Below, one piece after another: positions 3,601-25,708 of a DNA stretch of 64,000 bases. Numbering within the stretch: position 1 is the stretch's first letter; the number at the start of each line of letters is the position of its first letter. The notes under the pieces are model-generated. The model saw only the letters and a list, made by a program, of their open reading frames with translations. It was not told the DNA's origin and made no database searches. The translations under genes were made by a program, and so were the position numbers. Source of the DNA: a virus; the IMG/VR virus record IMGVR_UViG_3300020411_001522, positions 28,403 through 92,402 of that record. The stretch is one strand, 5' to 3'.

Positions 3601-3851
3601 TAGAGGAATTTGCCTTCTCGTAGATGTTTTACAGCATCGGTGCAACCACCGACTTTATTCCCACCAATGATTACCTGTGGGAAGGTAGACCCCATACCAA
3701 ACTCCGCATAGAATTGGTTGCGGTCGAAGTTAACATCGAGTTTCATCTCGTTGTAACTCCATCGATTCATATTATACACTTCTTTAATTTTTGTGCAATA
3801 AGGACAACCAGATCTTGTATAGATTGTTGTCGATGGTGGAATCTTTGCCAT
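3600..3851 (-). CDS. glutaredoxin
   Basis: 83 residues with the full glutaredoxin pattern: dithiol active site CPYC at residues 16-19, the cis-proline motif TFPQV, and GGCTD near the C-terminus for glutathione binding. It reduces protein disulfides using glutathione. In T4-like phages a glutaredoxin/thioredoxin (NrdC) donates electrons to ribonucleotide reductase, so it probably serves the NrdA/NrdB pair encoded at 21-25 kb. Start ATG at 3851, just downstream of an intrinsic terminator. Confidence 0.92.
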   Translation of the reverse strand: MAKIPPSTTIYTRSGCPYCTKIKEVYNMNRWSYNEMKLDVNFDRNQFYAEFGMGSTFPQVIIGGNKVGGCTDAVKHLREGKFL

Positions 3852-4338: not shown

Positions 4339-5488
4339 CTATTGACAAATCACGATCCCCTGACAATCCACAATGTAATTGATACATGCATGTAATGCCA
4401 AAGATATGTGTGTGATCTGGTGCATAGTAGTAGTCAGGATGCTGTGTGAGGTGAGAATTTTTGCCCTCTCCCCACGAAGATCTGACTTTGTGGATGAGTC
4501 TACCATCATTCCACCATTTTTGTCCAACCCTTGTGACACTTTTCTTACTGACCTTCTCCCAGTATCCAGAATTGTGAGCACTACCATATTGATAGTGGAA
4601 GGCAAGGGCATCAACATATGCCTCTACCATTCTTAGATACCAGAGATTAGCGAGTAGTCTCTCCTCATTTGTTTGGCCATTAACCAAATAGTCGCAGATT
4701 CTTTTTGCGACCATATCATAATGTAATAGCGAAAGTGCTTGCAATGGCTCGAAGAAGAGCAAAGCGTTACCATTGAGTGCCAACTTATTATTGACAATCA
4801 TATCGGGTGCGTAAGATGGAGTCCACTCGAAGAGGTCTCCATGTGAGTATACAACCTCAGCATCTACATGTGACTGATAGTCCCTGTGAAACAGGTAACC
4901 TGTCCGTGAGATGCCTTGCTTAGGAAATGGAAGACTAAACTTCCATCCATATTCATGGGCGAGGTGGTAGGTATACTCTGGGTGACCATGTATTTTATGG
5001 TCATCGAAATATAATACACTATTGACACATGGAATGTCAATCTCTTTTCTATAGTTGCTGAGAGCACCTGAGCAGTTGATTACGAAATCATATTCATTGC
5101 TAATAGAATTAAGAGCAGTGATACGTTTTCCAATAAACTTTACTCCTTTATATTTCTCTAGATTCTCTTGGAGAAATGGGTTAAGAGTCTTAGTGTAAAA
5201 GTGAATAGCATCTGCATGTAGAAATCTATGATAGAAATGCTTTGAGTTACCCCAGTCAACAAACTCAATGCCCTTCTTATAGGACGCAAGTCCTAGGGCA
5301 ATAAGATCATCGATAGTTAAACCCAATGTGCATTCTATCAGTGATGCAAATTGAGGTGTGGTTGACTCACCAACAGGAAGTTGTTGGGTGTCGGGATCAT
5401 AATAACAATCAACTTTAATGTTGTAGGTCAAGAGATTCATGATGGTAATTAAACCACCACTACCTCTGCCAATCACTGCTACCTTCAT
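4334..5488 (-). CDS. flavin-dependent tryptophan halogenase-like protein
   Basis: 384 residues. The N-terminus has the dinucleotide-binding GxGxxG-type loop (VIGRGSGGL), then the halogenase signature PVGESTTP (about 38-45) and S-Y-K-K-G-I-E-F, in which K71 sits where the catalytic lysine (K79 of PrnA) lies. A GWKFSLP segment replaces the usual GWxWxIP motif, with the second Trp changed to Phe. FEPLQALSL matches the conserved Glu region. Family members halogenate tryptophan or other aromatics with FADH2, O2 and halide. It is shorter than PrnA (about 530), so substrate and activity are uncertain. It overlaps the next upstream gene by 4 nt. Confidence 0.8.
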   Translation of the reverse strand: MKVAVIGRGSGGLITIMNLLTYNIKVDCYYDPDTQQLPVGESTTPQFASLIECTLGLTIDDLIALGLASYKKGIEFVDWGNSKHFYHRFLHADAIHFYTKTLNPFLQENLEKYKGVKFIGKRITALNSISNEYDFVINCSGALSNYRKEIDIPCVNSVLYFDDHKIHGHPEYTYHLAHEYGWKFSLPFPKQGISRTGYLFHRDYQSHVDAEVVYSHGDLFEWTPSYAPDMIVNNKLALNGNALLFFEPLQALSLLHYDMVAKRICDYLVNGQTNEERLLANLWYLRMVEAYVDALAFHYQYGSAHNSGYWEKVSKKSVTRVGQKWWNDGRLIHKVRSSWGEGKNSHLTQHPDYYYAPDHTHIFGITCMYQLHCGLSGDRDLSIV

Positions 5489-13208: not shown

Positions 13209-13364
13209 TAATTGAGAGTTTAAGTAATAGTGCAGGGAACACTGAGTATAATATTCCTGTCTCACCCTCAGAGGCAGGTATTAGAGACTTGCTTTACATC
13301 CCCATAGGTCTCGGTTAATGGGATGTTATGTAACGAAACCGTTACATGGTGTTGGGATCAACAC
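13209..13364 (-). ncRNA. structured 5' leader of psbA (candidate PhotoRC-type element)
   Basis: About 155 nt between the predicted start of transcription and the psbA ATG. On the minus strand it holds a perfect 8-bp hairpin, ATGTAACG-GTTT-CGTTACAT (13327-13346), then GAGAC...GTCTC (about 13286-13314), then a CTGcCTC/GAGaCAG hairpin just after. PhotoRC-II motifs are known upstream of psbA in marine cyanobacteria and cyanophages; whether this is one needs a covariance search. No T-run follows the hairpins, so they are not terminators. Confidence 0.5.
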
Positions 13365-18957: not shown

Positions 18958-19127
18958 TCTGCGTAACCATCATCATCTCCATTGTATCTATACGACATAC
19001 CTTCCTTAACTAGTGGATCGGAGACTACAGGTCTGTATGCATCCACATCTTCTTTAATAGCATCTTCCAAACTCTCTGCGAGGAGTTTAAGATTGTGTGC
19101 AATGAGTTTTACCTTTTGATAATTCAT
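18954..19127 (-). CDS. 57-residue hypothetical protein between talC and nuclease
   Basis: Open frame beginning MNYQKVKLIAHNLKLL and ending DDDGYAD. It has an ATGA overlap with the talC stop at the start and a TTGA overlap with the nuclease at the end, so all three are translated as a chain. Helical N-terminal half, acidic tail. Not recognised. Confidence 0.65.
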   Translation of the reverse strand: MNYQKVKLIAHNLKLLAESLEDAIKEDVDAYRPVVSDPLVKEGMSYRYNGDDDGYAD

Positions 19128-19786
19128 GGTTTAAGATTTTCTTGTAGGGTTTGCCAGTCCTTGTCAAATTGCTCTAGACCTTTATCGGTCAAGACATGCT
19201 TATACATTTTGTTAAACACGGCAGGAGGGATCGTGCAGATATCTGCACCAACTCCAAAACATCTACCGACCTGATGCACATCCCTAATAGATGCTGCTAG
19301 GATTTGTGTCTTTACAGAATGCCTAGAGTATACATCAGAGATTGCTCTGATCAACTCAACACCTGAGACAGAATTATCATTCAATCTACCAACGAAAGGT
19401 GACACATAAGTAGCACCTGCTTTCGCAGCAAGAATTGCTTGTGAGACTGAGAAGCAAAGAGTAACGTTAGTGGAGATACCATCCTCCGACAACTCTTTAC
19501 ATGCTTTAAGACCCTCTGGTGTGAGGGGCAATTTAATAGTTACACTAGGATGTATATCAATATAATCGTCTGCCATGTCTAGCATTTCTTCTGCTGTAGA
19601 TCCAACGACCTCTGCAGAAACAGATGCTGTCCATCCAAACATGTTACAAATCTCAAGGATAACATCCCTAGGATCTTTCCCTTCTTTCATCATCAGGGAA
19701 GGGTTGGTAGTTACACCATCAATCAATCCAGTTGCAACTGCATCATAAACTACTTCGGTATTGCTACTGTCCAAAAATAGTTTCAT
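19124..19786 (-). CDS. talC: transaldolase (TalC/FSA family)
   Basis: 220 residues from ATG 19786, with AGGAGAG just upstream; a longer frame adds four residues. FLDSSNTEVV, GVTTNPSLM and the Schiff-base lysine in TIKLPLTPEGL (K85) mark the short transaldolase/fructose-6-phosphate aldolase family, which is the cyanophage type rather than the long host TalB. It moves a C3 unit between sugar phosphates. Phage TalC is thought to favour the pentose phosphate pathway, giving NADPH and ribose for nucleotides. It has a ~250-nt structured leader. Confidence 0.95.
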   Translation of the reverse strand: MKLFLDSSNTEVVYDAVATGLIDGVTTNPSLMMKEGKDPRDVILEICNMFGWTASVSAEVVGSTAEEMLDMADDYIDIHPSVTIKLPLTPEGLKACKELSEDGISTNVTLCFSVSQAILAAKAGATYVSPFVGRLNDNSVSGVELIRAISDVYSRHSVKTQILAASIRDVHQVGRCFGVGADICTIPPAVFNKMYKHVLTDKGLEQFDKDWQTLQENLKP

Positions 19787-19808
19787 GACTCTCCTCATAG
19801 TTAAAGTT

Positions 19809-19816
19809 ATTTATTT
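19809..19816 (-). promoter_or_regulatory. late-type box AATAAATA in the talC leader
   Basis: Minus strand AATAAATA, 23 nt before talC and just after a T-rich run. It may give a short late transcript that skips the structured leader. Confidence 0.35.
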
Positions 19817-19859
19817 TCGTGAAAAAAAGGAGGGAGGTTGGGTTACTGTATACCAACAA

Positions 19860-20030
19860 AGAACGGGCATTACTACAGAGTAAATACGTCCTTGCCTACG
19901 ACCTACTTGGTTGAGTAGTTCTGCTATTCCTAGCAGCGAGCACCACCTCTGTCGTATCACCTTATCCAGCCATATGCCAGAAAGATTATTCAGTCACTCC
20001 CAGTGTGCTGATCAGGCACAGATATATAAT
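19860..20030 (-). ncRNA. structured talC leader with a tRNA-like cloverleaf
   Basis: Minus strand, between a terminator and talC, 298 nt without a credible gene. A closing stem TACGAC/GTCGTA (19951-19956 with 19897-19902) encloses a GAG/CTC arm, a hairpin CTGCTA-GGAA-TAGCAG (19921-19936) and a hairpin CTACT-CAACCA-AGTAG (19903-19918). This is the order of acceptor, D, anticodon and T arms. There is no TTCGAAT loop and no normal anticodon loop, so it is not a working tRNA. A TGTGC/GCACA hairpin lies at the 5' end. It could be a cis-regulatory element, perhaps of the manA type known from cyanophages; that link is from memory. Confidence 0.55.
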
Positions 20031-20035
20031 GGCAT

Positions 20036-20068
20036 AAAAAAAGGAGGGTGTCAACCCCTCCTTAGAAA
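20036..20068 (-). terminator. intrinsic terminator before the talC leader
   Basis: Minus strand AAGGAGG(GG)...(C)CCTCCTT hairpin followed by TTTTTTT. It ends the 20-kb small-gene operon 17 nt after its last stop. Its loop contains TTGACA, with TATATAT 20 nt downstream, a possible weak talC promoter. Confidence 0.85.
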
Positions 20069-20084
20069 TGTGTATGAATGATAA

Positions 20085-24734: not shown

Positions 24735-25708
24735 ACCTTTTTCCAGAATGTTAGTTTTACTTTTGCTTCGGCACCCTTAAAGGTGTTACGTTTTACGATC
24801 TCTTTAACGTCATGACCTGCTAGGTGCATGTCATTGAGATCTTTTTCTTTAATTGTTTTAGGGAATATCACTACAGGATATCCTTTATCAATAGTATTAC
24901 TTATTTTATCAACGATCTCCTTGTTTCGTGGTTCGTTGTCGAAGACGAATACAAATTGATAATCGAAAGTGCTGTAGTCAACATCACTACCACACATAGC
25001 AATAGCATTTCCAAGGAAATAACTGTCGAATGGTCCTTCTGTGACATATACAATCTCATCTTTGTTGATACGATCTAGTCCAAAGAGTTTAGTCTTATCT
25101 TTGTTGAAGATACATGTGATATATCTTAGCACACTTTTAGGTGCTAGAGACCTACCTTGTATTCCAAACCAGTTACCATCCACATCGATGAGTGGGATGA
25201 TGATTCTTGGTTGGTCATTCTTCAAACTCTCAAAGTAGTTTGGACTTTGTTTGTTGACCCATGCTTTAAACTTGTCAACATAATACAGAGAATAGAATGC
25301 CTCTGCAGGTAGTTGCCTCTTTGTTAAATACTCTCTTGCGGGATGCTCATTATTTAGACTAGCAATCGATTCCAGACCTGTTGGCTTACTAGCAAAGTAA
25401 GGCTTTGCTGACAGGTCAGGTAGCACGTCTTTCTTCTTAGGTTTCTTATACTTTTCTAAGAGATATTCTGAGTATAAGTCTGATGCCTGATCCTTTAAGA
25501 AGGTAGAAAGAGACTTAGAGATACCACAGTTGTGACATTTATAAACGTAATCGTTATTGCGGACAAAAAAATACCCCCTCGCTTTACTCTTATAGCGTTG
25601 GGAGTCACCACAATAGGGACACCTAAAGTTGTAGGTGCGTCCTTGATGTTTGAATTTTTCTAATCTGACACCAACACGATCAATGTATTGGGTATCAATG
25701 TAACTCAT
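24731..25708 (-). CDS. gp61: DNA primase (T4 gp61-like)
   Basis: 325 residues. An N-terminal zinc ribbon (CPYCGDS ... CHNCGIS) is followed by a Toprim-type core with VTEGPFDSYFL and VFVFDNEP, the acidic metal-binding motifs. It makes RNA primers on the lagging strand with the gp41 helicase. Coupled to nrdA downstream and to the coiled-coil gene upstream by 4-nt overlaps. Confidence 0.93.
   Translation of the reverse strand: MSYIDTQYIDRVGVRLEKFKHQGRTYNFRCPYCGDSQRYKSKARGYFFVRNNDYVYKCHNCGISKSLSTFLKDQASDLYSEYLLEKYKKPKKKDVLPDLSAKPYFASKPTGLESIASLNNEHPAREYLTKRQLPAEAFYSLYYVDKFKAWVNKQSPNYFESLKNDQPRIIIPLIDVDGNWFGIQGRSLAPKSVLRYITCIFNKDKTKLFGLDRINKDEIVYVTEGPFDSYFLGNAIAMCGSDVDYSTFDYQFVFVFDNEPRNKEIVDKISNTIDKGYPVVIFPKTIKEKDLNDMHLAGHDVKEIVKRNTFKGAEAKVKLTFWKKV

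Follow-up and report, generated by a model that had tools for sequence, protein, structure and literature searches.

A complete manA RNA upstream of talC

The window, a stretch of 64,000 nt from a 92-kb IMG/VR virus record, carries on its minus strand the transaldolase gene talC, which is separated from a small upstream ORF by a gap of 298 nt (19787-20084). We identified in this gap a manA RNA (Rfam RF01745) of 194 nt that covers model positions 1-192 of 192 and is thus full length (cmscan, 182.6 bits, E 2.9e-49; the gathering cutoff is 55.2 bits). It is the only manA in the whole record. Its end lies 40 nt from the talC ATG, which places it in the potential 5' UTR of a phage gene. A preliminary description of this DNA had guessed at manA, with a new RNA class as the alternative; the covariance-model search bears out the guess. 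The features of the locus are collected in Table 1.

Table 1. Features of the manA-talC locus (window coordinates)
Feature	Position	Strand	Basis and remarks
Intrinsic-terminator-like hairpin AAGGAGGGGTTGACACCCTCCTT with T-run, closing the upstream operon	20036-20063	-	sequence
Sigma-70-like promoter: TTGACA (20054-20049), 17-nt spacer, CATTAT (20031-20026) after TG	20026-20054	-	10/12 matches
manA RNA (RF01745), complete	19827-20020	-	cmscan and covariation, 60 relatives
P1, 5' hairpin of manA	20004-20020	-	Rfam structure; 5/6 pairs compensated, alignment poor here (47% paired)
GGGAG, 5' strand of the whole-RNA closing stem	19997-20001	-	partner CTCCC at 19836-19832
Cloverleaf-like domain: closing stem TACGAC/GTCGTA (19956-19951/19902-19897) and three hairpin arms (19949-19938, 19936-19921, 19918-19903)	19897-19956	-	Rfam structure; most pairs compensated
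First-arm loop GTGGTG; TGGT could pair with ACCA of the third-arm loop (19911-19908)	19941-19946	-	both loops nearly invariant
T7 tract immediately past the closing stem	19822-19828	-	sequence; not conserved in P-TIM40
AATAAATA, weakly like the T4-type late promoter TATAAATA, in the manA-talC interval	19808-19815	-	sequence; putative
talC, transaldolase; SD-like GAGGAG at 19796-19791	19124-19786	-	Pfam PF00923, E 7.7e-57

The preliminary description had found no convincing gene in the talC leader and had judged its fold not to be a tRNA, and both points stand. The sole ORF beginning within manA on the same strand is a 49-aa frame, and many indels in the alignment of relatives are not multiples of three, which argues against a conserved coding frame. 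Some GenBank records have 'hypothetical protein' ORFs overlying manA (L160 2512-2688, L164 2563-2769, L167 2558-2732, L168 2569-2742 and L386 2556-2687; the phages are P-HM1, S-SSM5, P-HM2, P-SSM4 and S-SSM7), and these are likely spurious annotations. A true or degenerate tRNA gene is suggested by the four-way junction and by three arms in tRNA-like order. However, ARAGORN and the Rfam tRNA model found no tRNA at the locus, an anticodon and the T-loop consensus are absent, and the cloverleaf-like domain is a portion of a larger conserved RNA. The full-length manA match refutes tRNA identity, to which we assign a negligible probability. Elsewhere in the window ARAGORN called a 99-nt tRNA-Asn (25068-25166, plus strand) where Rfam finds nothing, and this call is probably a false positive.

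All four helices of the cloverleaf are within the Rfam manA consensus. They form the inner junction of manA, and the whole RNA adds a closing stem, P1 and three more helices. The structure first outlined at 19860-20030 is therefore real, but the whole RNA is larger than the cloverleaf and runs from 20020 to 19827. Folding of the single sequence was discarded as proof (z = -0.99; 16/100 shuffles were equally stable). Among 60 distinct relatives, which are mutually related and were retrieved via exact 16-mers, 88.0% of cells were paired as compared to 77.6% in shuffled alignments, two-sided changes occurred in 35 of 55 pairs (23.2 in shuffles), and the covariation score was 0.298 versus 0.124, a value reached by 0/500 shuffles. 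This covariation was lost when pairing partners were slid by 1-3 columns, falling below 0.1 after a one-column shift. The TACGAC/GTCGTA stem showed compensatory changes at 6/6 pairs and was 94.7% paired. We accept the structure because the family comparison is decisive where the single fold is not, and the earlier claim of a structured RNA holds on the same grounds.

The outermost stem was fixed by the search pattern in the 60-relative set and its variants were therefore sought in a separate search, which yielded GGGAG/CTCCC (n = 197), GGGTG/CACCC (n = 57), GGAAG/CTTCC (n = 4), mismatched stems (n = 7) and unscored ones (n = 2). In phage ACG-2014f the stem is GGATG/CATCC. The UGGU and ACCA loop motifs are both conserved in 262/264 copies, and ∼60 columns of the manA alignment are invariant, including many unpaired ones.

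Because the RF01745 match is full length and the family covaries, the window copy is an ordinary new member of the known orphan family manA, reported by Weinberg et al. 2010 (PMC2864571) and included in the Rfam 14 update (PMC7779021). It shares with known manA the structure, the conserved bases, the cyanophage setting and the position 5' of a sugar-metabolism gene, and no difference was apparent.

The 5' and 3' boundaries of manA copies

In the window the sigma-70-like promoter ends 5 nt ahead of manA nt 1, and its -35 box overlaps the loop of the upstream-operon terminator hairpin, an overlap also seen in many relatives. In a first set, 113/116 copies had a promoter with no more than two mismatches, as compared to ∼3% of shuffled sequences, and the distance from the -10 box to manA nt 1 was 4-10 nt (5 nt in the majority of 14 copies). 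A larger set contained the promoter in 246/250 copies lacking an upstream tRNA and in 0/8 copies having a tRNA end directly ahead of P1 (Fisher p 1e-12, ignoring shared ancestry). One of the four exceptions, L060, also trails, by eye, a tRNA-like sequence missed by ARAGORN. With either a promoter or a tRNA directly upstream, the start of manA coincides with the predicted +1 or with a tRNA 3' end.

Several copies reside within tRNA arrays. In Synechococcus phage ACG-2014f, manA (2569-2779) lies between tRNA-Arg (2494-2567) and tRNA-Asn (2781-2852) with 1-nt spacers, and in S-SSM7 manA (2478-2678) abuts a tRNA-Gly starting at 2678. The order in contig L300 is tRNA-Thr, tmRNA, tRNA-Ala, manA, tRNA-Asn; the array there (4480-5177, minus strand) includes a tmRNA matched by Rfam cyano_tmRNA at 144.7 bits, with an overlapping permuted-tmRNA match. 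Further metagenomic phages have the orders tRNA-Thr/manA/tRNA-Asn and tRNA-Asn/manA/tRNA-Val, while S-CAM8 has tRNA-Thr and tRNA-Asn 5 nt apart with no manA between them. In contig L112, tRNA-Thr (1120-1191) is followed without a gap by manA (1192-1384) and then by a strong 10-bp terminator (1410-1433), beyond which a perfect promoter (1461-1490) precedes a 60-aa ORF. Several of the tRNA-array copies form a diverged subgroup; the L112 copy is canonical (184.6 bits). Spacers in some tRNA-flanked copies are only 0-3 nt. RNase P processing, proposed earlier for the window RNA, fits the tRNA-array copies, whereas the window copy carries a promoter of its own and is not next to a tRNA.

The 3' side is more varied. 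In a less biased set of 98 distinct copies, manA is followed by a conserved hairpin (n = 25), another terminator-like hairpin (n = 16), a tRNA (n = 6) or nothing recognised (n = 51), so that a terminator-like or conserved hairpin lies downstream of 41/98. The conserved hairpin, GACCUAAGAUGCAACUC..GAGUNGGGCAGAUGGUC, is followed by a T-rich stretch in most copies and comprises 53 distinct sequences; it has no Rfam match and lies outside the Rfam manA consensus. In the 25 copies, among them L050 (1960-2012, minus strand), the hairpin, GACCUAAGAUGCAACUC..GAGUNGGGCAGAUGGUCUUUU, lies 8-16 nt past manA. When we scanned independently for the hairpin, manA was immediately upstream at 87 of 95 new loci; the remaining eight were mostly unrelated sequence, one of them at a contig end. 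This hairpin is missing from the window copy, and no terminator hairpin was scored there. A T-run as the universal terminator at the manA 3' end was rejected, since the tract present in the window is absent from the near relative P-TIM40, the nearest isolate carrying talC. The AATAAATA element occurs in P-TIM40 as well.

Neighbouring genes and the role of manA

The preliminary description suggested a riboswitch-type control element of talC, a role that the distribution of manA does not favour: just 42/267 copies have talC within the 1800 nt that follow them, and some copies are located between tRNAs. Other downstream neighbours include gp32 (as in P-HM2), purS/purL-like genes, a 2OG oxygenase, small unknown genes and tRNAs. 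The genes downstream of 124 copies fell into 36 protein clusters, the largest being talC-containing (n = 30) and gp32-like (n = 23); they share no pathway and make up no coherent set of controlled genes. The nearest long ORF is co-directional with manA in 176/180 copies downstream and in 167/194 upstream (p 2e-5), and the four downstream ORFs that run convergently seem to be weak matches or artefacts of the ORF filter.

Among individual loci, manA of L060 (1448-1644, minus strand) lies directly ahead of a cupin-type protein resembling mannose-6-phosphate isomerase, the family namesake. One phage contig, L078, carries two manA copies that differ from each other and are separated by 3.3 kb (119-315 and 3636-3836, plus strand). 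Strong manA matches in the bacterial records L132, L133, L137 and L153 look like phage or misbinned contigs.

We favour the interpretation that manA functions mainly as a discrete noncoding RNA whose ends are defined, which we hold at about an even chance, over a riboswitch of talC. The argument rests on the alternation of promoter and tRNA at the 5' end, the tRNA-flanked copies, the isolation of the L112 copy, the unrelated downstream genes and the 3' hairpins. From the type and spacing of the promoter, transcription in the window would most likely start within a few nucleotides of manA nt 1, during early or middle infection; talC is expressed as a middle gene in P-HM2 (PMC5082946), which is compatible with a sigma-70-type promoter upstream of manA. 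The transcript would fold into a closed multi-branched structure through the GGGAG/CUCCC stem, a fold shown by covariation. The promoter or the 3' end of an adjacent tRNA would set its 5' end; the 3' end would come from a terminator, from the 5' end of an adjacent tRNA or from processing of a read-through mRNA. The window promoter presumably also feeds talC, and on that transcript manA would be the talC leader.

A possible but less probable account is a cis-acting leader or riboswitch: manA would form the 5' UTR of talC and of further operons and, in response to a metabolite or to the state of infection, would control readthrough or translation. It agrees with the cis-regulatory label that manA bears in Rfam and in Weinberg et al. 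2010 (PMC2864571), with the terminator-like hairpins, one type of them conserved, between manA and the next gene in 41/98 copies, and above all with the position of manA 5' of co-directional genes, which speaks most strongly for its acting as a leader or at the head of an operon. The 3' sequence CCUCCCUCC of the window copy could also pair with the talC GAGGAG in a minimum free energy fold. Against this account, no pathway unites the downstream genes, a terminator and a new promoter cut the L112 manA off from the next gene, and spacers of 0-3 nt leave the tRNA-flanked copies no room for an attenuator, an SD switch on the neighbour or any other expression platform. Many neighbours have no SD for the 3' end to mask; for this reason, and because 57 copies have CACCC, anti-SD masking by a 3' CCUCCC was rejected as a general mechanism. 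The discrete-RNA interpretation has its own difficulties, among them the divergence of several tRNA-array copies, though not of the L112 copy. The bias in downstream co-direction counts against it, since a fully independent RNA would not have to mark the starts of transcription units as strictly as manA does, a pattern that could be explained by the manA promoter or equally by a leader role. No terminator was seen ahead of the next gene in 51/98 copies, and the 3' boundary is clear solely in the tRNA-flanked and terminated copies, whereas the 5' side is defined by a predicted promoter or a tRNA for nearly all.

Alternatively, manA could be a 5' stabiliser or processing element, base-paired from about +1 and passively shielding its transcript from RNase E in cis. 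P1 does start at about +1, and such a role would be independent of gene function or ligand. A passive hairpin would not require the ∼60 invariant columns, however, and would be hard to understand between two tRNAs; we consider this improbable.

Within the favoured reading of a discrete RNA, manA probably acts in trans. As a first guess, suggested by its repeated occurrence in the company of tRNAs and, in one array, of a tmRNA, it may have a role at the translation machinery. A fuller version, a trans-acting translation-related RNA with a tRNA-like core in which the UGGU/ACCA contact of the first and third arms mimics the tRNA elbow, made from early promoters or freed from tRNA arrays by tRNA-processing enzymes, is speculative and likewise improbable.

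Relation to other phage RNAs and implications

Conserved RNAs ahead of metabolic genes are also represented in cyanophages by the candidate leaders wcaG, glnA and PhotoRC-II; for manA, unlike these, we found no consistent expression platform or regulon. The window contains a PhotoRC-II RNA (RF01717, 64 bits) at 13243-13338 on the minus strand. GOLLD and ROOL, as described in PMC12286853, are likewise structured phage RNAs of large size and unknown function and often occur near tRNA islands, but they are other families, are much larger (many GOLLD >800 nt) and gave no Rfam match here. The dedicated promoter, the placement in tRNA arrays and the 3' hairpin are absent from the Rfam consensus and from the manA passages of the literature consulted. 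For manA function, our search of the literature since 2010 returned only discovery, drawing-software, Rfam/CaCoFold and genome-annotation papers.

A cis-regulatory label steers experiments toward a ligand and the gene under its control. Should manA instead be a fixed-end RNA that can be cut out of tRNA arrays, cultured cyanophages would best be studied by RNA-seq, pull-down and deletion, and since ACG-2014f, S-SSM7, P-HM2 and S-TIM4 are cultured carriers of manA, this reading can be tested directly. Cyanophages abound in the sea and reprogramme the carbon metabolism of their hosts, and an early RNA common to many of them would matter.
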